A DNA stretch of 64,000 nt from Alphaproteobacteria bacterium (GTDB lineage Bacteria > Pseudomonadota > Alphaproteobacteria > DSM-16000 > Inquilinaceae), in the NCBI GenBank assembly GCA_028277405.1, contig JANQGH010000026.1, positions 1 to 64,000 of the forward strand, given 5' to 3'. The position numbers and the translations under genes are program-made. How positions within the stretch are numbered: the first letter of the stretch is position 1; every line of letters begins with the position of its first letter. Below, piece by piece: positions 1-12,732 of this stretch. The notes under the pieces were generated by a model. It searched no databases and had not been told where the DNA came from. It was given only the letters and a program-made list of their open reading frames with translations.

Positions 1-35
1 ATGATCTGCTCTTCGGAATATCTCGTTCGCTTCAT
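1..35 (-). CDS. IS3-family transposase OrfA, first 11 codons only
   Basis: The minus strand from 35 reads MKRTRYSEEQI before leaving the window. This closely matches the conserved start of IS3-family OrfA proteins, whose helix-turn-helix domain begins with a basic stretch followed by SEEQII. OrfA binds the element's ends and is fused to the OrfB catalytic domain by ribosomal frameshifting; that part is not visible here. The fragment is too short to assign a subgroup. Its distance from the IS end at 99 is normal for this family. Confidence 0.65.
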   Translation of the reverse strand, partial: MKRTRYSEEQI

Positions 36-99
36 CGTCCGTCCCTTCTGTCGGGTCGGACTCTAGCTCCATCTGGAGGAGATTCTCAGAGGCAGGTCA
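1..99 (-). mobile_element. End of an IS3-family insertion sequence (rest lies left of the window)
   Basis: Read on the minus strand, the element starts at 99 with TGACCTGCC, the TG-type end typical of IS3-family elements, and runs out of the window. An OrfA start lies about 64 bases inside this end. The junction between 99 and 100 falls inside a codon of the plus-strand IS481-like transposase, which marks 99 as the element's outer edge. The other end, the target duplication and the rest of the transposase are outside the window. Confidence 0.7.
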
Positions 100-322
100 C
101 CTGCTCGACGAGCATTTCCGCGTCGAAGGCCGGCGCACCTGGTTCGAAACCATCGACGAGATGCAGACCGCGCTCGGTGCCTATATAATCGCCTACAATA
201 CCAAGCGCCCGCACCAGGGCCGAAACATGAACGGCAGAACGCCCCAAAAGGCCTTCGCCGACGGATGGCCCAAACCGACCAAAACAACCAGAAAGGAGAC
301 ACCCCAGAAAACCGCAGCCTGA
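100..322 (+). pseudogene. IS481-like transposase, C-terminal remnant
   Basis: The frame ending in TGA at 320-322 encodes about 73 residues beginning LLDEHFRVEGRRTW. It contains YNTKRPHQGR and MNGRTP, hallmarks of the C-terminal end of the DDE integrase core in IS481-type transposases; the last catalytic Glu would lie just upstream. The N-terminal part is missing because an IS3-family element abuts the gene at position 99/100. In relatives the residue before LLDE is usually Thr (ACC), and its last base is retained at 100, which supports a clean insertion. The gene cannot make an active transposase from this fragment. Confidence 0.75.
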
Positions 323-339
323 GCCCTCAACCGAGCGGC

Positions 340-367
340 ACTGTCAGCCGATTACCCTCCCTGTACA
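340..367 (+). repeat. Probable right terminal inverted repeat of the IS481-like element
   Basis: Shortly after the transposase stop, the sequence runs from ACTGTCAGCC to CCCTGTACA. Ends beginning TGTACAGGGAG (read on the minus strand) are of the kind found in IS481 elements. The matching left repeat would lie left of the window, so the call rests on position and end sequence only. Confidence 0.4.
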
Positions 368-489
368 CGCGATATCAGATTTGTGAAAGACCTCCGCAAT
401 CTCGTCCGAAGACGAACCCATGAGGTGATGGTTGCGTGGGCATCGATTTGCCAATCTTCGATTCTGGAATCATTTGCTTCTGATCTAGG

Positions 490-1608
490 TTACATTGTTC
501 CACGTAGAACCCGTCGAATGTCGGCAAGAATTTTCTCTCCGCCCGCATCGATGAAGTCACTCACCAATGCTGCGACTGTGCTCATCACCCGTACGACTGT
601 GCCGTTAAATTCTTGATCCACCTCGAGTTTCTCAGGCTGCATCAAATTGCGAGATGATATCTTCGCAATCCGTTCGCTCGCGGTTGGGTGGGACTCGGCA
701 ACAGAAGCACCATTGCAGATCCGATCCTCGAGTGAGCGCAGTATCTCAAGGGAAGAAAGCATCAGAGCTCCGCCGGCTCCGGTAGTTAAGTATGGATTTT
801 GCAGCAGTGGGAATGGCTCAAACTCCAACCGCTCGCACACTTTCGCTGCGAACCCATCGGCCTGAAACTCCTGCACTTTGGGGTCATCATCGATATTGCG
901 ATGACCCAAGACATGATGTCCAAACTCATGTGCGACAGCGAAGTACTCCATCGCCCAAGCGACCCGTTCAAAAACGTGAAACTCATACGGTGACGAAGGG
1001 CGAAACGGCACAAGGGCATGTGTTCCGGTCCCGGAGAAGGAGGCAAAGATCCTGAGCCAGTACAGAACAATATCCGGCTTGTTCAATAAGAACTTTTGGT
1101 CACTGGACAGGTCGGACACTTTAGAGGTCCAATGCGCCACGTCCGAGTGGAGTGTTCTGACGTACGCTCGCGCTACTAGACCGCACCATCTGAAGAGAAA
1201 CGAGCTGACAGCGAGGATCCCTTCATCGGTCATGATCACGTTGGTGAGTGATGCCGAAACGCCTGGTTTTGGGTCGATCGCAATCTCGACTTTCTCGTGA
1301 GAAGTGTTCCCAATTTCTGAGATTGCCCTGCGCACGCGGTCTGAGAGATACGTCAACCTGAACTCGAGGCCGGGGCCAACTCCGGGACTATTGACGTTCT
1401 CCAGCTCTCCATGAAAGTGTACCGCATATTTGCGCCGTGCGATTTCCGCTTCCGGCCAGCCGGCCTCCCTCAACGCATGCGCCATTAACTCCCGCTGCTC
1501 TGCTTCGCTTTGGCCGTCCGGCCTGTGAAGCGTGGCATCTGGTTCTTCTGCAGCTCTTGCAAAAATCTGCGCCCAAAGATCCCGAGCGGCATCATTCTGG
1601 TTTTTCAT
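490..1608 (-). CDS. Zinc-metalloprotease-like protein (HEFGH), last gene of the island operon
   Basis: A 372-residue protein with HEFGH at about 227-231 and EFQAD at 247-251. An HExxH helix followed about 16 residues later by a Glu, with nearby ALxSHP-like and SHPTASER segments, resembles gluzincins of the M48 or U49 (Lit-like) type. No signal peptide or clear membrane helix is evident, so it is probably cytoplasmic. Its ATG overlaps the stop of the upstream gene by 4 bases (ATGA), so it is translationally coupled. The N-terminal 200 residues are not recognised. Substrate and function are unknown; linkage to a macro-domain protease, a PurA-like fusion and a possible ADP-ribosyltransferase suggests a conflict system. 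Base composition is lower in GC than the core genes. Confidence 0.75.
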   Translation of the reverse strand: MKNQNDAARDLWAQIFARAAEEPDATLHRPDGQSEAEQRELMAHALREAGWPEAEIARRKYAVHFHGELENVNSPGVGPGLEFRLTYLSDRVRRAISEIGNTSHEKVEIAIDPKPGVSASLTNVIMTDEGILAVSSFLFRWCGLVARAYVRTLHSDVAHWTSKVSDLSSDQKFLLNKPDIVLYWLRIFASFSGTGTHALVPFRPSSPYEFHVFERVAWAMEYFAVAHEFGHHVLGHRNIDDDPKVQEFQADGFAAKVCERLEFEPFPLLQNPYLTTGAGGALMLSSLEILRSLEDRICNGASVAESHPTASERIAKISSRNLMQPEKLEVDQEFNGTVVRVMSTVAALVSDFIDAGGEKILADIRRVLRGTM

Positions 1609-2276
1609 TCGAGGACACTCAGGACTTCAGTGCCTCGCTTGACTACAACGCGCCTCACATGGTCCTGAATATCATTGACGGAGTAATCAACGGCTAATTC
1701 GACAACGCGCTCCGTCCGCGCCCTTCGTTGTCGCCAGTGCACATACGGATAATCTGAGATGCGTGCAAAAATGGTCTCGTCGCGCGGGTGCGGCATCGGT
1801 TTTGTGCATCCGCTGTTGATCGGGCACAGCCAAATCGCATCCTTATGAGCCTCAATCAGTGACCTCGTATCCACTTCAAGTACATCGTGCTCATGATCAC
1901 GATAGGCTTTGGCATTGGTCAGTTTGTGAAGGCGTGTTTCCGAAAGCCAGAAGAACGCCTTTGCGTTCAGCAATTCATACCAGTCCATGGGAGACAGGCG
2001 TTCGGGTAAAGCCCTCTTGAGTCCCGTATCGCTCATTGGGATTTGGTCGCGCACAACGGCGCGAGGCAGACCGTCGCCCGTCACTTCAACGCTTTCGGGT
2101 CGATGTCGACTCTCAATCTCCGCTCTTCTTTGCGGATCGACGGCATAGTGGTCTAGAAGTGCGCTGGTGCTCAGCAGCCCATATTGCCTGATCGATGGCC
2201 ATGAGCCGCGTTCGGCCATATGATACAATGTCGGGCAGTTGCCAATCAGTTCTTCAAGTTCTGATTCGGTCACCAA
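1605..2276 (-). CDS. DUF7002-like protein, possible ADP-ribosyltransferase-fold toxin
   Basis: A 223-residue protein starting with a short helix and then LYHMAERGSWPSIRQYGLLS (about 17-36). An N-terminal [L/Y]-H-[ST/MA]...I...G-L pattern, followed by RDQIPM and FFWLSETRL, resembles DUF7002 proteins and, more loosely, DarT/RES-type ADP-ribosyltransferases, where the first His binds NAD. That fold assignment is inference; I see no unambiguous catalytic Glu motif. The ATG overlaps the end of the kinase-PurA-like gene by 7 bases, and its own stop overlaps the next ATG by 4. A macro-domain gene at the head of the operon would be the expected partner if this enzyme transfers ADP-ribose. Confidence 0.65.
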   Translation of the reverse strand: MVTESELEELIGNCPTLYHMAERGSWPSIRQYGLLSTSALLDHYAVDPQRRAEIESRHRPESVEVTGDGLPRAVVRDQIPMSDTGLKRALPERLSPMDWYELLNAKAFFWLSETRLHKLTNAKAYRDHEHDVLEVDTRSLIEAHKDAIWLCPINSGCTKPMPHPRDETIFARISDYPYVHWRQRRARTERVVELAVDYSVNDIQDHVRRVVVKRGTEVLSVLE

Positions 2277-3901
2277 GCCCTCCGGTCAATAATATTTCGC
2301 CAGTTGAAATCCGTCGATAACAGGGACACCGGCCGACCAGAGATTCTCTCGATCTCCTCAACGAAGCGAATTGTATCCTGTGAGAGTTGCTCGAAGCGAA
2401 AGGCCTTCCGATTATTGACATTGAAGTAGTCAACAAAGGTCAGGGCAATGTCTGTCGGGCCATTGAGCTGGACTGAATCGCGAAACTGAACCCAGTCGAA
2501 CTCCGCGATCCGCCGCGGCCTGTCGGTAGTGGTCGTCCGCTCGGCACGCTCGAGTTCCTCCAAAGGGATATCGCTTCGCCGATGTATTTCGGCCATGTCG
2601 ACCTCGTGCGCCATTGGACCCGACGGCCCGCCCACGCGGATCGGATACGTACGACAGACCATGATGATCTTCCGCACATTTGAAGGTGCAATGCCAGCAT
2701 CAGCCAAACAGCCTGACACAGTCGTATCCCTCGAGGTCACGTGGGGGTAGTCGCCGTGGTGAAGGCTCAAGGCTGTGCCCTGCGTTCCTTCCAGGAGAAT
2801 CCGCTGACCAGCCACCATCGCGTCGGCTATGATCTGCCGTGCGCTTCCAATGTAGGGCTCGAGAACCTCGCAGTCGCGGGCCAGGAATGCTTCCTTCTTT
2901 TCCTTGTAGTCCGAGCGACCAGTCATTTTTCTCGCGGAAGCTATACCCACACCTTGCGCGGTCGAACTGATGCTCCCGAACCGCTCTTCTTCCTCGTCGC
3001 GATCCGCGTCGGTGATTATCATCGCGTGTCGATCGATCGAGAGCCTGTCCGCATCAATCTTGTGCTCGGCAATCTCTTCAAGCAGCTTATTGGGATAGAT
3101 CACCGCGCCAGGACCGAGGAGCAACTTCGCGTTGGGAGCTCGCTGTGTGCCCGACGGCAGGTGATAGTATCTTTCCGGCTTCGGTTCCGCGTAGACTTGG
3201 TGGCCAGCATTTGGTCCGCCGACGCGCACCAGGAGGCTGTATTCTGGCGCGATATGTCCAACGATGTTGCCTTTTCCCTCGCTCCCGAACTGACCGCCGA
3301 TCAGCACATCAACCAAGGCATCGTTCGACCGCGGGTAAAGGTTGAGGAGCGCTGTAGCCCGAACGAGAGCTGCTTCTTCGCTGCAGCGGTCAGTCGAAAC
3401 GACGATATCCGCTACTTTCTGGAGGTTTTCGATCTCTCGCTCTGTTCGATTTCGCTTCAGTTCGTCGTAGGCTACTGCCTCGTCGTCTTCTCTGCTGCGT
3501 GATTCGTAGCGCCGCCGGAGTTCTTCCTCCGTCGCGGTGAGATGGATGTGATGAACCTCGGCACCGTATGCCTTTCGGATGGCGTTGATCTGACCCAATA
3601 TTCTCACAGAGTCGACAACATAGAGGCCCTTTGGCGTCTGACCGGTACCATAGTCGTCGACTGCCCGCTGCAACGCTTCGCTAACCCATGCACCGCCATC
3701 CTCTCGATCGAACCTCTGCCCAGCGCGCTGCAGAGCCTTGCGTTCCGGCTTAACTTTAGGCGCCTTCTTGAGAATCAGTTCCCTAGTCTTGATGACCTTA
3801 GCGCCATGCCTTTCGTTGAGCAGGCGCACTAACGCCGACTTGCCGGAACAGATTGGCCCGGACAGTAGAACGATACGGAGGCTTGCGCTCCCAGCTGCCA
3901 A
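2270..3901 (-). CDS. P-loop nucleotide kinase fused to PurZ/PurA-like synthetase domain
   Basis: A 543-residue two-domain protein. Residues 8-190 form a P-loop kinase (GPICSGKS at 15-22) of the small nucleotide kinase type. Residues 196-543 are adenylosuccinate-synthetase-like: GGQFGSEGKG at 202-211, NAGH at 231-234, STAQGVG near 313-319, EGTQGTALSLHHGDYPHVTS at 371-390. The catalytic Asp of the PurA GDEGKG loop is Ser207, and the TKxD guanine-binding motif reads TFVDYF. The domain is about 350 residues, shorter than the roughly 430 of bacterial PurA. Both changes and the length recall phage PurZ, which joins aspartate to dGMP. His234 and Lys210 are kept, so some activity is plausible. The start lies one base after the upstream stop. 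No housekeeping role is likely. Confidence 0.85.
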   Translation of the reverse strand: MAAGSASLRIVLLSGPICSGKSALVRLLNERHGAKVIKTRELILKKAPKVKPERKALQRAGQRFDREDGGAWVSEALQRAVDDYGTGQTPKGLYVVDSVRILGQINAIRKAYGAEVHHIHLTATEEELRRRYESRSREDDEAVAYDELKRNRTEREIENLQKVADIVVSTDRCSEEAALVRATALLNLYPRSNDALVDVLIGGQFGSEGKGNIVGHIAPEYSLLVRVGGPNAGHQVYAEPKPERYYHLPSGTQRAPNAKLLLGPGAVIYPNKLLEEIAEHKIDADRLSIDRHAMIITDADRDEEEERFGSISSTAQGVGIASARKMTGRSDYKEKKEAFLARDCEVLEPYIGSARQIIADAMVAGQRILLEGTQGTALSLHHGDYPHVTSRDTTVSGCLADAGIAPSNVRKIIMVCRTYPIRVGGPSGPMAHEVDMAEIHRRSDIPLEELERAERTTTTDRPRRIAEFDWVQFRDSVQLNGPTDIALTFVDYFNVNNRKAFRFEQLSQDTIRFVEEIERISGRPVSLLSTDFNWRNIIDRRAW

Positions 3902-5269
3902 TTAGAACATCTCGAGTTGGATGCGCTTTGGAGGGAGATCGTAGACTGTCACAGTCAAACCCGCGCGCACCATCAGATCATCGAGCATTTCTTCTATTGT
4001 TGACCAATTGCCACCTGCTGACCCTGTGCCGATTTTTGGCATGTGAACGCTAGCGCCAACTGATGCAGCATAGGCGGCGACTTGTTCAAAGCAGTCCTGC
4101 AACGCTGAGTACCTAATCCTAGGAAACAGCGACTGGCCAAACCCTTCCTGTCCGATCAAGCTTGCAATCAATGTTTCTTCATTTGCTTTCGAGAAGATCG
4201 CTTGGCCCAGCCTCTGGTTTCTTGGAATTTGAATGACCTGCTTTGTAAAGTCGTTCTCTGCATCAGGAAAGCGCTTCGCAATTTTGCGCGCGACGCCGCC
4301 TCCCCATTTGATGGCCTTGTCGTTGACTAGCTGACAGATGATCTTCCTGCCGCCATTACGAGGCTCGAGAATACTCCCGTGGAGAAGGCGTATCGGAATA
4401 TTATCTTCTTGGGTCTTATTAAATCTCACCAACCCAGCAACTCTCGGATACACACTGCCCGGATAGGCCGTTAGGCCAACACACTCGATTTGCGTTGGAG
4501 CATCTGTCACCCAGCTTTCAACCGCACGATCCGTATGTCCAATAGCGGTACACCTATGCACGATACTCTCGTCCGGTATTTCAATACCTGTGCCCCGGAT
4601 GTTCGGAGCGGTAGGCGAACTAACGAAATAGTCGATCCTGTAGTGACGCGTCCCGTTTTCGGAGACCTTTGGTGAAGAAACGAAAACGCCGATAGGCGGA
4701 TTCGAAATCTTAGCCAGTCGAATAAGAAATGCCTCTGCCGACACATCGTAGTCTCGGCGCTGGTGCATCAATTCCTCGATTGGCGAAATGCTCGACGCTG
4801 CCGACATACTGCCGATAGGAAGTACAAACTCCGAAGCAGCTATGTTGCAGAGCATTTCCAGTTGCCAGTCGTCGGGTGTTCCATCGCCACCGCGATTGCG
4901 AATTTGCTCTGACCAATCGGGAAAAAGGAGGTGTGCAATTTCATGGGCAATCGAGAACCGAACGCGTTCTCGCGGCTGCTGTGGATTGAATTGGATCTTC
5001 GGGCCGGTAGGCGTAGCTGTCAGTCGTGCGTCCGACACGCTTGAGTTCGCCTCAATCTGTACCTCCAACATCTCGGCGATGCGAAGAGGGTTGAATGGGG
5101 GACCTTCCCACCCCTTCTCCCTTGCCTTCAAAACAAGAGCGCGCGCCGCTTCTTCGATCGCAATCAGCGGATCGGCGCCTTTTGCAAATGTCTTAACTGA
5201 GGCGTGGGTCCATTTGATTGAGGGGGCGTCTGGCATGTCGGCTCTTCGAGAGGACGTCTCGCGGATCAC
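3902..5269 (-). CDS. M78 (ImmA/IrrE-like) metalloprotease fused to a macro domain
   Basis: The open frame gives 455 residues from a GTG at 5269; an ATG at 5236 (MPDAPS) preceded by GAAGAG is the likelier start (444 residues). HEIAH lies at 109-113 (long numbering), followed by CNIAASEFVLP at 141-151, the usual M78 pattern with a third zinc ligand (Glu147). The C-terminal 150 residues form a macro domain: GSILEPRNGG, VNDKAIKWGGGVA and VHMPKIGTGSAGGNW, the ADP-ribose-binding signature of the TARG1/DarG-like group. ImmA-type proteases cleave regulators; macro domains bind or remove ADP-ribose. First gene of a four-gene operon; the next gene starts one base after its stop. It could be sensor, regulator or antidote. 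Confidence 0.85.
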   Translation of the reverse strand: MIRETSSRRADMPDAPSIKWTHASVKTFAKGADPLIAIEEAARALVLKAREKGWEGPPFNPLRIAEMLEVQIEANSSVSDARLTATPTGPKIQFNPQQPRERVRFSIAHEIAHLLFPDWSEQIRNRGGDGTPDDWQLEMLCNIAASEFVLPIGSMSAASSISPIEELMHQRRDYDVSAEAFLIRLAKISNPPIGVFVSSPKVSENGTRHYRIDYFVSSPTAPNIRGTGIEIPDESIVHRCTAIGHTDRAVESWVTDAPTQIECVGLTAYPGSVYPRVAGLVRFNKTQEDNIPIRLLHGSILEPRNGGRKIICQLVNDKAIKWGGGVARKIAKRFPDAENDFTKQVIQIPRNQRLGQAIFSKANEETLIASLIGQEGFGQSLFPRIRYSALQDCFEQVAAYAASVGASVHMPKIGTGSAGGNWSTIEEMLDDLMVRAGLTVTVYDLPPKRIQLEMF

Positions 5270-5872
5270 ACGATGGTACGGCGAGTTGATTTGGATCTCT
5301 AGCTGACATTACAGCAACCTGAACAAAATAGGAACAGAAGGATTGCCAGGGAACGGCTCCTTTCTGCATGCGGCATGGATTGCTTCGCGTTCGCAGCGAA
5401 AGTCCGCAATCCGCCCAAGAGTACCCAATAGGTGCATGTCAACGCTCGCTACCCGAGCCGGTTTGCTGATTGCAAAGTAGAACATGCGCGATCAGCGACG
5501 TGTTTTTCGCAAGCTACTAGAAACTTGGTGAGTTAGCCGCACCTCGAAACAAATAGCCGGTAGCGTTTGCTCAATTGGAATCGAGGCGACTGGTCCTGGT
5601 GTCGGAGGGTTAAGCGGCAATCGACGGGATTGCTGGGAAACTGCCCTATTGAAGGTGGATCGTATACTCAATTGGCGATCATTGCGAGCCGCACTTCGAC
5701 GCAACAGTGCTGTCTCAGAATTGAGTCAGCGTGTGCAGTTGGCGCGCAGCGACACCTGCTTAGATGCTGCGGTTCTCATAAAGGAACGCAAGCGGTCTGC
5801 TTGCCTTGATAGCTATGCGATACCGTTTCAATTTTGGAGATGGTACGAACGTTCATAACCCCCTGAAAAATC
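5270..5872. other. About 600 bases without a convincing gene, upstream of the island operon
   Basis: No open frame here looks coding: the longest, on plus from about 5567 and 5649, are under 81 codons, start with TTG, lack a ribosome-binding site and match no known family. Composition is AT-richer than the core. The stretch nearest 5270-5350 must carry the promoter of the minus-strand operon, but I find no clear -35/-10 pair. The rest may be decayed island DNA between the operon and the tRNA-like remnant. Confidence 0.5.
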
Positions 5873-5947
5873 TGGCGGATCCGACAGGATTCTAACCTGT
5901 GATCTTTGCCTCCGGAGGCCGTCGCAACGGACCAATCCGCCATTGGA
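5873..5947 (-). pseudogene. Degenerate tRNA-Arg(CCG)-like sequence, possible island boundary
   Basis: On the minus strand this contains GCGACGGCCTCCGGA, identical in style to the anticodon 5' arm and CCG loop of alphaproteobacterial tRNA-Arg, then a T arm ACAGG-TTAGAAT-CCTGT and a 3' GCCA. It is not a good tRNA: the 3' anticodon stem is GGCAA and no longer pairs, the invariant C of the T loop is A, and no proper D arm or matching acceptor 5' strand can be folded. It is probably a decayed tRNA copy. tRNA 3' ends are common integration sites, so it may mark the edge of the island to its left. Confidence 0.55.
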
Positions 5948-6113
5948 CCGTCGTTCTTGATGTCAACTGTTTTGCTGAGATAGGCGATACTCGTCTTCTC
6001 CCGCGACCGGTGTCACTCTCGTAGACATCCCCGAGCGCCGATCTGCCGGTGACTATCTGGTGACACCGTTAGGAATGGACGCCAACAAGCGCCGCCTAAC
6101 CTCTTGAAAAACC

Positions 6114-6188
6114 TGGTGGGCGCGACTGGGATTGAACCAGTGACCCCTGCCGTGTGAAGGCAGTGCTCTCCCGCTGAGCTACGCGCCC
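6114..6188 (-). tRNA. tRNA-Val(CAC)
   Basis: A 75-base cloverleaf including encoded CCA: acceptor GGGCGCG paired with CGCGCCC, D arm GCTCAGCGGGAGAGC, anticodon stem CTGCC/GGCAG around loop TTCACAC (anticodon CAC), T arm CTGGTTCAATCCCAG. It reads GUG codons. It lies alone between the tRNA-like remnant and the glucoamylase gene. Confidence 0.93.
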
Positions 6189-6262
6189 GATCCAGGCGGT
6201 GGTGTAGGGGGTGTGGCACGGCCGTGTCAAGCCGTCCGCTTCTGCCTTGTGTGGTCGGCGGA

Positions 6263-8656
6263 TCAGCCGGCTGGCCCTCCGGCGCCTTGGCACACGGTAA
6301 AGTCCTGGCCGGCCCAGCCGCCGTCGCTCAAACGGCGCCAAGTGAAGACGATTCCGTCCTGGCGGCTCAGCGTGTCGGGCTGGAAATCGACGCCATGGAG
6401 ACCAAGGCCGAGTTCCGCCGTCGGCGCGTCGTTTGCCGTCTGCCAGTTGTCGGCGGACCAACGCAGGACGGCCGGGCTGGTCAAGGCGATCGTCAGCTTC
6501 TGTCCCGGCGCGACGGTCGAGATCGGCGCCTGGGGCAGCCAAAAGGACCGCTCGGCTTGCGGCCGCTTGCCCTTGTAGCGCTGCCACACCGTCTCAAGCC
6601 GGTCGCTGGGGCGGCCGAGGCGGTGCGAGACGGCAAGCTTGATGAACTCCGAATGGGTCCAGGCCAGTGGCATGGCGGAGCCGGTGGGGCGGCCGGGAAA
6701 CAGGCGCGCCGCTTCGATGGGCTCGGCGTCCCAGACCTGTTCCGGCATCAAACCGGCACGCCCGGTCATGGCCGTCATGGCGTTGAGATAGGGCAGCGGG
6801 TCGCGCCCGGCGGCGACCTCGTACATGCCGCGCTCGCCGGTCAATAGCGGCCAGGGGCGCCCCCGGCCGGTGCCGTCATAGGCGCCGCCGTCATCATGCT
6901 CGCCATAGCCGTCGCCATTGTAGCGGCGCCAGGCAGGCCCGTTCGGCGTCTCGGCCTTCAGCAAGGCGTCGGTAACGGTCAGGCTGTCGCGGATCAACGG
7001 GTCATCGGCGCTGCGCAGACCGAAGCGCACAAGCTGCAGGAAATCGGTGCTGACCTCTTCGTCGGCTGGCACGGCGGCGCGGTCAGCGGGCCGGTTGCGC
7101 AGAATCAGGTGCTGATGCAGGGAGCGTTCGTCGGAGGTCACCATGGCGGGTGCCATGCGCACATAGTACCCACCGATCTCGAGCCGTCGCGCCAGCGGCG
7201 TGTCGCGGACCGCCAACCAGTCCTCCAGATGGGCGTTCCAGAAATCGGCCAAGGCGCATGCCGTCCCGGCGGTATCGGTCTCGAGAAAGCGGGCACCTGC
7301 CACCAGGGCGGCAATGCAAAAGGCCAGGGTGAAGCAGTTGAGGCCGGCGTTTTCCTCCCACCTGTCCTGATCGCTCGACGGCCCGTTGGCGGCGATGAAG
7401 CCGAGCGCGCGGCCGACCATATCGCCGACCTCGATGCCGTCCAGGGCGTCGCGCTCGGCCAGCATGGCGGCCAGCAGTACCGGGGCGGCGGTCTCGTCAA
7501 GCTGAACGCCGGTCCAGTGCGGCGTGCCGCCCAGCCATTGGTTTTGATACCAATGGCCGTCCTCCGCCTGCGACGCGATCAGATAGCGTAGCGTATCGCG
7601 CGCCTCGTTCACGCAGCCGAGTGCCAGGAGGCCACCCGCGCTTTCCACCAGGTCGCGCGGCCAGACCAGATGATAGCCGGCCCGGTCGTCCTTGGTCGTG
7701 CCCCAGGGTACGCTGAGGCTGGCCACCATGGTGCCGGGATAGGTCTGGTCCCGGGACGTGCGCAGCACGGTTGCCGACAGCTTCACCTGGTTCTTGATGG
7801 CCTCGGGTGCGGTCAGACCGGCAATCACGTCCGTCGTAGTGTCGCTATGCCACTGGCGCCAGTCGGCAATCTGCCGGTCCCACATGACCTTGAAGGGGGA
7901 TAGCAGCGTGGCAAGGGCGAGTGTTGCCGCCGATTGCGCGGAGTCGCCGAAGCCGAGACCAAGCACCGCCTGTCGCGGCAAGGCGGCCATCAGCGCGACA
8001 TTGCCCGGCCCCGCCTCGGTATGGTGCCACGTCATCCGGCCGTTGCGGTCGAAGTCCTGCCAGCCGTCACTGGTGCCGACATAGCCGGCGCTCGCCGCGC
8101 CGAACGCGTCGCGCTGGGCGCCATCCACGGCCGCCAGCGCCAGGCCGAACGGGCCTTGCGAGGCGGTCAGCATGCAGCGTCCACCCAGATCCTGGATCGC
8201 GGCCCGATTGTGCCAGCCGCTGGCGCCCAGGCGCGGCGCCAGGAGGGCATAAGGGCGCAGGTCCGGATCACCGCTCAGATCCAACTCGATCGCGAGCACA
8301 TCGCGCAAGGGATCGGGGGTGACCCGCAGGCGCAGCGTGAACCGCTCGTGCCGATGCGTCGCCTCGACCGCCGGAATGCCGGGTTCCGGCAACGTTATCT
8401 CATAGCTGTTGAGCCGCTTGACCTCGACCCAGAAGCCCTTGCCGTCGGCGACGATGAAACCGAGATCGCGCACCTGCGGGATGTCGACGCGCGGGTAGTA
8501 GACCTCGTTGATAATGCCGAAGCCCATCGTGAACCAGATCCGCGATGGCCCCAGCGCACAGCCGACCATGTCCTTCGCGCTGCTGGTCCAGGTCGGCCCT
8601 ATACCCGGTCCGTCCGGCGCCGGACGTCGCCGCTGCTGCATCCTTAGCTCGCTCAT
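6263..8656 (-). CDS. Glycoside hydrolase family 15 glucoamylase/glucodextranase-like
   Basis: A 797-residue protein. The first 270 residues form the beta-sandwich domain of glucodextranase-type enzymes (GPSRIWFTMGFGIINEVYYPRVD), followed by the (alpha/alpha)6 barrel of GH15 with WPRDL at about 328-332 and WEENAGLN further on. GH15 enzymes release glucose from the non-reducing ends of alpha-glucans. There is no signal peptide, so it probably acts on internal glycogen-like glucan or imported oligosaccharides. It stands alone on the minus strand with a tRNA downstream and gph upstream, 103 bases away. Fine substrate choice (alpha-1,4, alpha-1,6 or trehalose) cannot be told from motifs. Confidence 0.9.
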   Translation of the reverse strand: MSELRMQQRRRPAPDGPGIGPTWTSSAKDMVGCALGPSRIWFTMGFGIINEVYYPRVDIPQVRDLGFIVADGKGFWVEVKRLNSYEITLPEPGIPAVEATHRHERFTLRLRVTPDPLRDVLAIELDLSGDPDLRPYALLAPRLGASGWHNRAAIQDLGGRCMLTASQGPFGLALAAVDGAQRDAFGAASAGYVGTSDGWQDFDRNGRMTWHHTEAGPGNVALMAALPRQAVLGLGFGDSAQSAATLALATLLSPFKVMWDRQIADWRQWHSDTTTDVIAGLTAPEAIKNQVKLSATVLRTSRDQTYPGTMVASLSVPWGTTKDDRAGYHLVWPRDLVESAGGLLALGCVNEARDTLRYLIASQAEDGHWYQNQWLGGTPHWTGVQLDETAAPVLLAAMLAERDALDGIEVGDMVGRALGFIAANGPSSDQDRWEENAGLNCFTLAFCIAALVAGARFLETDTAGTACALADFWNAHLEDWLAVRDTPLARRLEIGGYYVRMAPAMVTSDERSLHQHLILRNRPADRAAVPADEEVSTDFLQLVRFGLRSADDPLIRDSLTVTDALLKAETPNGPAWRRYNGDGYGEHDDGGAYDGTGRGRPWPLLTGERGMYEVAAGRDPLPYLNAMTAMTGRAGLMPEQVWDAEPIEAARLFPGRPTGSAMPLAWTHSEFIKLAVSHRLGRPSDRLETVWQRYKGKRPQAERSFWLPQAPISTVAPGQKLTIALTSPAVLRWSADNWQTANDAPTAELGLGLHGVDFQPDTLSRQDGIVFTWRRLSDGGWAGQDFTVCQGAGGPAG

Positions 8657-8759
8657 CCCGGCAACGTCCTTCGATCAGATGCCTGTCTGTGCCCTTGTGA
8701 TAAGACCATAGCGGCAGTCGAGATGCCATGCGCCGTCCCGGCACGCCCTCGATTATCCG

Positions 8760-9446
8760 TCAGGTGGTGGCCGCGAGTCCTGCGATCGCGCCCGGCAGTG
8801 CGTCGAAACGGTCGACCGACTGGGCACCAAACGTCTCCTGAGCGGGTTTCGCATAGCCATAGGTCACGAGGATTGCAGGAACATCGGCGGCGTGGGCGGC
8901 GCGCACGTCGTTTTCGTGATCACCGATCATGATGGCTTGGCGTGGTCGGCAGCCATGGTGGTCGAGGATCACGCGCACAGGTGCCGGGTCCGGCTTCAGC
9001 GCCGGCGCCGAGCCGCCGCCGACAACCGGGTCGAAGAAGTGTCGGATCCCGGTCATCTCAAGGGCTGTTTCGGCGGCTTCGGCCGGCTTGTTGGTGCACA
9101 CGGCCATGCGGTGTCCGGCAGCGGAAAAAAGGCTCAGCGTTTCTGCAACGCTCGGGTATAGGTCGCCGGCGTCAATCGGTTCGGCCGCGAGCATCGCGGC
9201 ATAGCGTTCGACAATGGCCTCGAACGGAGGCGCCGTCGGCTGCCCGCCCGTGGCGGCAAGGCCGCGTTCGACAAGCTTTGCCGCGCCGTCGCCGACCATG
9301 CGCTCGACCGCGTCCTGGGACAGGGGCTGGCGCCCCAGTTCCGTCAGGATGCGGCCCCATGCCCGTGTTATTTGCGGGCCGGTATTCACCAGCGTACCGT
9401 CGAGATCGAAGATCAACAGCGCTGGGTTTTGCGTTGAGGAAGGCAA
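8760..9446 (-). CDS. gph: Phosphoglycolate phosphatase-like HAD hydrolase
   Basis: A HAD-family phosphatase of about 228 residues. LIFDLDGTLVN near the start carries the nucleophile and acid Asp pair; CTNKP and GDHENDVRAA supply motifs II and IV. It would convert 2-phosphoglycolate to glycolate. The frame is open far upstream, but that part runs antisense into glmU and is not family-like. A TTG at 9446 with GGAG ten bases upstream gives the right family length and is my chosen start; there is no suitable ATG. Divergent from glmU, with 67 bases between them for both promoters. Related HAD subfamilies (for example AMP/Neu5Ac-9-P phosphatases) cannot be excluded. Confidence 0.87.
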   Translation of the reverse strand: MPSSTQNPALLIFDLDGTLVNTGPQITRAWGRILTELGRQPLSQDAVERMVGDGAAKLVERGLAATGGQPTAPPFEAIVERYAAMLAAEPIDAGDLYPSVAETLSLFSAAGHRMAVCTNKPAEAAETALEMTGIRHFFDPVVGGGSAPALKPDPAPVRVILDHHGCRPRQAIMIGDHENDVRAAHAADVPAILVTYGYAKPAQETFGAQSVDRFDALPGAIAGLAATT

Positions 9447-9513
9447 TGCTGAAACACTCCGCAACAAAGATTTATTTCGCCGGTTCGGGCCCGGCGTGGC
9501 ATCAGGCTGCGTC

Positions 9514-10902
9514 ATGACTGCAAGCACGCCCCCCGTCAACGATTCCCGCGACCTCGCCTGTGTGGTCCTTGCCGCCGGCAAGGGCACGCGGATGAAGTCC
9601 GCATTGCCGAAAGTCCTGCACAAGCTCGCCGGCAAGCCGATGATCAGCCATGTCCTGGATGCGGTCGGCGCCCTTGAGCCGTCGAGGACAGTCATCGTCA
9701 TCGGCCCCGATATGGATGCGGTCGCCGAAGCGGCGGCGCCGGCAATCCCGGCGATACAGCCGGCGCAGGATGGCACCGGCGGGGCCGTCCGGATTGCGAT
9801 GCCGGAACTGGTCGGTTTTGCTGGTGACGTGCTGGTCCTGTTCGGTGATGCGCCATTGGTTTCTGAGTCGACGCTGCGCGACATGCTGGCCCGCCGCCGC
9901 GCGGCCGATGATCCGGCCGTGGTCGTCATGGGCGTGCGGCTGGACGATCCGGCGGCGTTCGGCCGTTTGGTGACGGATGCTCAAGGCCGGCTGACGGCGA
10001 TCGTCGAGTTCAGGGACGCCGACGCGGAGACACGGGCGATTACGCTCTGCAATGGCGGCCTGATGGCAGTCGATGGCAAGCGGCTGCCGGCCCTGATCGA
10101 CGCATTGCGCGCCGACAATGCCAAGCGCGAATACTACCTCACCGATATCGTCGGCGAGGCCGTCGCCAGAGGTTGGGGCGCGGCGGTTGTCGAGGCTGCC
10201 GGTCCTCCAGGTTTGCTCGGCATCAACTCGCGGGCGGAGTTGGCGGCTGCGGAGGTGAGCCTTCAGAGAGCGCTGCGCCTGCAGGCGATGGAGGAGGGTG
10301 CGACCCTCATCGATCCTGAGACGGTCTTCTTCGCCGCCGATACGCGCCTGGGCCGCGACGTGGTGATCGAACCGTCGGTGTTTTTTGGCCCGGGGGCGGT
10401 CGTCGGTGACAACGTGACCATTAAGGCCTTCAGCCATATCGAGGGCGCGACGATCGCTGCGGGGGCCCAGGTCGGCCCCTATGCCAGGCTGCGGCCAGGT
10501 GCGGAAATCGGGCAGGGCGCGCGGATCGGCAACTTCGTCGAGGTCAAGAACGCCAGTCTCGGGGCTGGCGCGAAGGCGAACCATCTCAGCTATCTGGGCG
10601 ATGCGGAGATCGGCGCCCGAACGAACATCGGGGCCGGTGCCATCACCTGCAACTATGACGGCGTCAACAAGCATCGTACGGTGATTGGCGAGGACGTGTT
10701 CATCGGCACCAACGCGGCACTGGTGGCGCCGGTCGCAATCGGCGACCGGGCCAACGTCGCGGCAGGCAGTACGATCGGCAAGGATGTCGAGGCCGATGCG
10801 CTCGGCATCGCCCGGGGGCACCAGGAGAACCGGCCGGGCTGGGCCAAGATCTATCGTGAACGGTTGGAGAGGCTGAAGGCCGAGCGCCGGCGCGGAGGCT
10901 GA
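9514..10902 (+). CDS. glmU: Bifunctional GlmU: GlcN-1-P acetyltransferase / UDP-GlcNAc pyrophosphorylase
   Basis: A 462-residue cytoplasmic enzyme for the last two steps of UDP-GlcNAc synthesis. The N-terminal half has the pyrophosphorylase motif LAAGKGTRMKS (about 19-29); the C-terminal half, from about 255, is a left-handed beta helix of hexapeptide repeats ending in GVNKHRTVIGEDVFIGTN. The ATG at 9514 gives the usual length; the open frame extends upstream but into gph. Only six bases separate its stop from glmS, so the two form an operon that controls amino-sugar supply for peptidoglycan and lipopolysaccharide. Confidence 0.96.
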   Translation: MTASTPPVNDSRDLACVVLAAGKGTRMKSALPKVLHKLAGKPMISHVLDAVGALEPSRTVIVIGPDMDAVAEAAAPAIPAIQPAQDGTGGAVRIAMPELVGFAGDVLVLFGDAPLVSESTLRDMLARRRAADDPAVVVMGVRLDDPAAFGRLVTDAQGRLTAIVEFRDADAETRAITLCNGGLMAVDGKRLPALIDALRADNAKREYYLTDIVGEAVARGWGAAVVEAAGPPGLLGINSRAELAAAEVSLQRALRLQAMEEGATLIDPETVFFAADTRLGRDVVIEPSVFFGPGAVVGDNVTIKAFSHIEGATIAAGAQVGPYARLRPGAEIGQGARIGNFVEVKNASLGAGAKANHLSYLGDAEIGARTNIGAGAITCNYDGVNKHRTVIGEDVFIGTNAALVAPVAIGDRANVAAGSTIGKDVEADALGIARGHQENRPGWAKIYRERLERLKAERRRGG

Positions 10903-10908
10903 TCGCCC

Positions 10909-12732
<1,824 letters not shown>

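Follow-up and report, generated by a model that had tools for sequence, protein, structure and literature searches.

A candidate anti-phage operon in alphaproteobacteria pairs an M78 protease-macro domain fusion with a kinase-PurZ fusion and DUF7002

The stretch of 64,000 nucleotides analysed here (the window; contig JANQGH010000026.1) carries a gene in which a protease is joined to a macro domain, which raises the question of what such a protein does and with which partners it works. The fusion had been proposed at 3902-5269 by a first-pass annotation made from the DNA alone, and it is borne out: in Pfam both Peptidase_M78 (PF06114, E 1.2e-7) and Macro (E 3.9e-5) score above their curated cut-offs, and sequence and fold searches agree. 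A frameshift or assembly artefact can be ruled out as the source of the fusion, because it is found intact in other species. The features of this gene (gene 1) are as follows.

3902 to 5236, minus strand: gene 1, M78 (ImmA/IrrE) protease and macro domain fusion, 444 aa (open frame to GTG 5269)
4715 to 5035, minus strand: M78 peptidase domain of gene 1 (residues 79-185 of the 455-aa frame)
4931 to 4945, minus strand: HEIAH motif of gene 1
4856 to 4858, minus strand: probable third metal ligand Glu138 of gene 1 (in QLEMLCN)
4400 to 4702, minus strand: region of a GAF-like beta domain as in PprI/CapP (residues about 190-290, from Foldseek alignments)
3935 to 4393, minus strand: macro domain of the SCO6735/TARG1/DarG (ALC1-like) class (residues 293-445)

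The annotated open reading frame of 455 aa is present on the minus strand at 3902-5269, but its GTG start is not upheld; homologues start at an ATG equivalent to codon 12 of the window frame, ATG 5236, so that the gene probably spans 3902-5236 and encodes 444 aa. In the protease half H109, E110 and H113 of HEIAH, together with E138, are invariant among seven homologues with identities down to 50%. The third metal ligand had earlier been sought in the segment CNIAASEFVLP; Glu138, which lies just before that segment and 25 residues past His113, is more likely, presuming that the spacing usual in the M78 family applies. In both sequence and fold searches PprI/IrrE and CapP are found as matches to the N-terminal part, and in Foldseek a model of gene 1 built from the seven homologues (pLDDT 75.6) aligns with PprI, CapP and related regulators over 266-286 columns; therefore the protease half seems to be PprI/CapP-like and to carry the GAF-like domain too. 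The suggestion that this protease cleaves a regulator found no counterpart, with no conserved HTH repressor gene as a partner for the M78 protease in or beside the operon at the loci inspected.

The macro domain matches the structures 2afc, 2fg1 and 5e3b (the last being SCO6735) with E of about 1e-20 by sequence and 4e-13 by Foldseek, and TARG1 and DarG are also matched by sequence and fold searches. The original assignment to a TARG1/DarG type thus stands as far as the structural class is concerned, but not for the active site, which is the Asn/Gln/Gly site of SCO6735. N316, Q374 and G416 correspond, counted along the alignment, to N27, Q85 and G128 of SCO6735; Gln374 occupies the position of TARG1 Lys84, like Gln85 of SCO6735, and Lys84/Asp125 of TARG1 are not kept. 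When the ADP-ribose site is checked by alignment, as the first-pass annotation had advised, N316, D317, Q374, G416 and the Gly-rich loops are invariant among the seven homologues. SCO6735 itself requires Asn27, Gln85 and Gly128, does without TARG1's Lys84/Asp125, strips thymidine-linked ADP-ribose and is a direct inhibitor of DarT (PMC9411070). Since its three residues are both matched and invariant, the macro domain of gene 1 is predicted to work as a hydrolase in the manner of SCO6735.

Gene 1 is the first gene of a translationally coupled, conserved operon, which the first-pass annotation had not mentioned, and the further features of this operon are given below.

2270 to 3901, minus strand: gene 2, P-loop nucleotide kinase and PurZ-like adenylosuccinate synthetase fusion, 543 aa, TTG start
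3362 to 3901, minus strand: P-loop kinase part of gene 2
2273 to 3319, minus strand: PurZ-like part of gene 2
3281 to 3283, minus strand: Ser207 in FGSEGKG of gene 2, at the position of the PurA catalytic Asp13
1605 to 2276, minus strand: gene 3, DUF7002, 223 aa, probable DarT-like ADP-ribosyltransferase
2220 to 2222, minus strand: His19 of gene 3 (in LYHM), invariant
1698 to 1700, minus strand: Glu193 of gene 3 (in VVEL), invariant
490 to 1608, minus strand: gene 4 (optional), M48-like metalloprotease, HEFGH at 916-930

In the window the start of gene 2 directly abuts the stop of gene 1 (gap 0), genes 3 and 2 overlap by 7 bases and genes 4 and 3 by 4 bases; the gap of 0 between genes 1 and 2 and the 7-base overlap of genes 2 and 3 are seen in most homologous loci. 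Genes 1-3 keep the same order in about ten alphaproteobacterial lineages; besides the window, loci so arranged come from Roseibium, Sphingomonas, Roseicella, two MAGs (one of Rhodospirillaceae, one of Rhodobiaceae) and several further genomes, and DUF7002 is present in every intact operon among the loci inspected. Purifying selection acts on all four genes (pS 0.63-0.81 against pN 0.07-0.30), the best conserved operon protein being the kinase-PurZ fusion at 87-89%, against 78-81% for gene 1. The copy in Roseovarius is interrupted by a contig end, and decayed copies are found in Breoghania (locus L023, 9950-15450, with frameshifts) and in Nitratireductor (locus L025, 10001-10348, where the first gene breaks off after about 70 residues).

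Apart from a few archaeal relatives, enzymes of the PurZ type are mainly known from phages that swap adenine for 2-aminoadenine. Judged by its sequence, gene 2 joins a P-loop kinase to a PurA homologue with the hallmarks of PurZ: at the N terminus lies a P-loop domain resembling NMP kinases (AAA_18, AdkA-like), and the C-terminal part is closest to short archaeal PurA and phage PurZ. As a criterion for PurZ we took the replacement of the catalytic Asp by Ser from published work, in which Ser stands for PurA Asp13 in all 147 phage PurZ/PurZ0 sequences whereas Asp is kept by 99% of the E. coli-type PurA group (PMC12884076). This Asp is replaced by Ser, as in phage PurZ, in 12 of the 12 operon homologues of gene 2, all of which also have the IRVGGxSG loop common to phage PurZ where PurA has TRVGAGPF. 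In a phylogenetic tree PurA proteins form a separate clade (support 100/99) and the operon proteins a clade of their own (100/100), the deep forks being weak (82/77), and against the NCBIfam PurZ family NF038379 gene 2 scores 197.7 bits, below the 300-bit cut-off. The window genome encodes a separate, normal PurA on another contig (C64) and gene 2 is therefore extra; a housekeeping origin was rejected on the same ground.

The product of gene 3 matches PF22531 (DUF7002) only, with the DarT family profile PF14487 not matched in Pfam, and a search of open-access PMC gave no paper that mentions DUF7002. Genuine DarT proteins (E 2e-18 to 2e-13 for DarT) nevertheless match positions 1-30 of the DUF7002 profile with E 9e-7 to 2.5e-4. 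In a Foldseek search of the PDB with a poor model of DUF7002 (pLDDT 55), DarT1, DarTG, LT, CT and Tpt1 lead, ahead of scattered unrelated chains, although the best E is 0.04 and none passes E 0.001. Direct comparison of the DUF7002 and DarT profiles brings His, NSG/NAG and Glu into register at only 31-49% probability; reversed controls fail and one of 60 block-shuffled controls scored better. His19 and Glu193 are invariant in 17 sequences. Three weak lines thus agree, none of them decisive alone, and DUF7002 is probably a remote DarT-like ADP-ribosyltransferase; the ADP-ribosyltransferase reading is, in our judgement, likely. The theme of ADP-ribosylation in the first-pass annotation therefore survives, in the macro class shared with TARG1/DarG and in the resemblance of gene 3 to a remote DarT-type enzyme, and with a DarG-class macro domain and a DarT-like DUF7002 in one operon a DarTG-like toxin/antidote logic is plausible.

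Distant DUF7002 genes also occur as orphans with neither PurZ nor macro partners in Streptomyces, Caballeronia and further alphaproteobacteria (loci L041, 5998-6642; L042, 5992-6633; L047, 7258-7899; L082, 6111-6731). A scan of viral contigs with a single DUF7002 protein gave no match.

A second form of the operon bears on which genes are essential. Sister operons in Rhizobium, Agrobacterium, Sinorhizobium, Methylobacterium and further genomes keep gene 2 and DUF7002 (45-50% identical) and have no gene 1, in place of which stand an HD nucleotidase-like protein and a 455-aa protein of no family; both forms together were found at none of the loci inspected. As gene 2 and DUF7002 are kept whilst gene 1 is swapped, the core consists of the kinase-PurZ fusion and DUF7002, and this core takes the protease-macro protein as one of two alternative partners. 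It follows from these operons without a macro domain that a macro antidote is not universally needed; a macro domain hidden in the 455-aa protein was considered and rejected, profile comparison being negative. The HD protein has its matches among families of phage deoxynucleotide phosphatases and dATPases, and in this it recalls DatZ of the phage Z-clusters. The family of about 455 aa (L036, 8282-9658; L045, 6492-7940; L084, 5314-6969) always accompanies kinase-PurZ and DUF7002 and has no significant match in Pfam, PHROGs, PADLOC or the PDB; its C-terminal FEWVHDG..WIVQLH resembles PEP-dikinase ATP-binding domains.

Two further plasmid loci carry related genes. On pMl5 of Sinorhizobium medicae (L057, 5296-9937) a PurZ-like protein that stands alone and has Ser where PurA has Asp13 is encoded beside HD nucleotidase-like, dCTP-deaminase-like and ThiF-like protein genes, possibly a third form of the system, without DUF7002. 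On pCC283b_4 of Rhizobium leguminosarum (L058, 5438-13001) genes for FolE, a PurA-like protein with the normal Asp, PurB, QueE and an IMP dehydrogenase-like protein are found with those for nitrile hydratase, QueC, HAD and phosphoribosyltransferase, a cluster that resembles those of the toyocamycin/sangivamycin type for deazapurines; adenylosuccinate synthetase beside folE is found on several R. leguminosarum plasmids.

The setting of the operon is that of mobile DNA. At 54.6% its G+C content is below that of the remaining window (64.2%), and both G+C and GC3 are low relative to the chromosome; gene 2 is missing in 16 other genomes of the same order and DUF7002 is found in about 1-2% of genomes sampled. 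Because its presence is sporadic and its G+C and GC3 are low, the operon appears to have been acquired horizontally. One edge of the low-G+C stretch is marked by a tRNA gene.

6114 to 6188, minus strand: tRNA-Val at the edge of the low-G+C stretch bearing the operon, a possible insertion site

No tRNA attachment-site repeat was found within the window. Between the operon and tRNA-Val, at about 5875-5945, lies a degenerate tRNA-like 3' half (GGTTAGAATCC...GGATCCGCCA) that neither ARAGORN nor Rfam calls, and a search for a second copy in the genome found none. Window positions 1-330, which lie at the end of the contig and immediately downstream of the operon, hold a transposase-like coding sequence (MKRTRYSEEQII), IS3-type by eye. 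An Rfam scan of window positions 1-12000 gave tRNA only, so a type III RNA antitoxin or other RNA element was rejected.

Elsewhere the operon is adjoined by Gabija GajA/GajB (L020; E 1e-222 and 9e-190) and by type I restriction systems (L014, L027), and further neighbours include SIR2-HerA and AbiE (L036), a GajB-like helicase (L037) and RdrB (L043). Integrases or recombinases lie beside the loci L020, L027, L046 and L037, and the Roseibium copy of the operon is also listed as a viral contig, a predicted provirus. This pattern of neighbours is that of a defence system, though it is no proof of one.

The reading we tentatively prefer, whilst giving it slightly less than an even chance, is that of a mobile anti-phage (conflict) operon in which DUF7002 would be the effector and the protease-macro protein its sensor and antidote. 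DUF7002 would act as a DarT-like ADP-ribosyltransferase on nucleic acid or nucleotides. In the uninfected cell the macro domain would take off the ADP-ribose added by DUF7002, and may bind DUF7002 itself, in the way that SCO6735 and DarG deal with DarT. The PprI/CapP-like half of gene 1 would detect infection, perhaps as ssDNA or a nucleotide, and proteolysis of a partner by gene 1 would free the effector to act. The kinase-PurZ fusion would turn (deoxy)guanylate into a nucleotide of the aminosuccinoadenylate type, which may either arm the response or poison the phage nucleotide pool. What counts against a simple DarTG reading is that the macro domain is dispensable in sister operons and that DUF7002 is sometimes an orphan.

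The best of the other explanations, unlikely as we think it, is signalling with the logic of type II Thoeris or Kongming, in which the signal would be an unusual nucleotide or ADP-ribose derivative made by DUF7002 or the PurZ-kinase, with the macro/GAF half of gene 1 binding it as a sensor and one of the proteases doing the killing. Type II Thoeris senses His-ADPR through macro domains and Kongming relies on dITP, in whose synthesis a dNMP kinase takes part (PMC12948488), and here a kinase joined to a nucleotide-converting enzyme is encoded together with two proteases; however, gene 1 retains the full set of SCO6735 hydrolase residues, as an eraser should, and sister operons have neither the protease nor the macro domain. 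Somewhat less likely again is a weapon against the nucleotide pool on the lines of AvcD or dGTPase, with the PurZ-kinase depleting dGMP or flooding the cell with a Z-type nucleotide and DUF7002 and gene 1 as modifiers. AvcD is a known anti-phage toxin that alters nucleotides, the kinase-PurZ fusion is the best conserved operon protein and the DatZ-like HD partner of the sister operons may join it in such a role, yet the macro domain and the ever-present DUF7002 would be left unexplained. A metabolic or nucleoside-modification operon riding passively on mobile islands is improbable, for whilst deazapurine biosynthesis clusters do contain PurA-like enzymes, this operon has no transporter or tailoring genes, its defence-island neighbours recur and its distribution is sporadic.

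Were the preferred reading of a DUF7002 effector with a protease-macro sensor and antidote true, a bacterial kinase-fused relative of PurZ, sited in defence islands and invariably accompanied by a probable ADP-ribosyltransferase, would join the nucleotide metabolism of Z-DNA to immunity of the DarTG type, DUF7002 would gain a function and the M78-macro fusion would be added to the candidate infection sensors, all in a three-gene candidate that is concrete and clonable. A doubtful but more far-reaching proposal is a new anti-phage class, in which a bacterial kinase-PurZ makes an aminosuccinoadenylate or 2-aminoadenine nucleotide as signal or weapon, with a DarT-like effector and a protease-macro check.

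The operon or its combination of genes is not found in the PADLOC of 2023, the NCBIfam of 2026 or open-access PMC, and newer defence-finder sets or subscription papers may describe it. Type II Thoeris and Kongming likewise have a macro domain or an unusual nucleotide in an anti-phage operon, whereas this operon is without TIR (ThsB), SIR2 or deaminase subunit, and profile searches gave no TIR match among its four proteins. With CapP/CapH of CBASS and PprI/DdrO it shares an M78 peptidase of the PprI/CapP fold (about 270-286 aligned columns), but it has no HTH repressor partner and adds a C-terminal macro domain. Gene 2 resembles PurZ/PurZ0 of 2-aminoadenine-DNA phages in the Ser at Asp13, the IRVGGxSG loop and its grouping outside the PurA clade, whilst differing in being bacterial, in its place in defence islands, in its N-terminal kinase, in its score below the NCBIfam cut-off and in forming its own clade. 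As in DarTG, a macro domain of DarG/TARG1 class and what is probably a DarT-like fold are encoded by neighbouring genes; unlike in DarTG, DUF7002 falls outside the DarT profile, the macro domain has an Asn/Gln/Gly site and is fused to M78, an obligatory kinase-PurZ gene lies in between and sister operons do without the macro domain. Finally, the closest characterised relative of the macro domain is the ALC1-like SCO6735 of Streptomyces coelicolor, which stands alone and whose Lys34 and Lys89 are not conserved in gene 1, whilst the equivalents of its N27, Q85 and G128 are kept.
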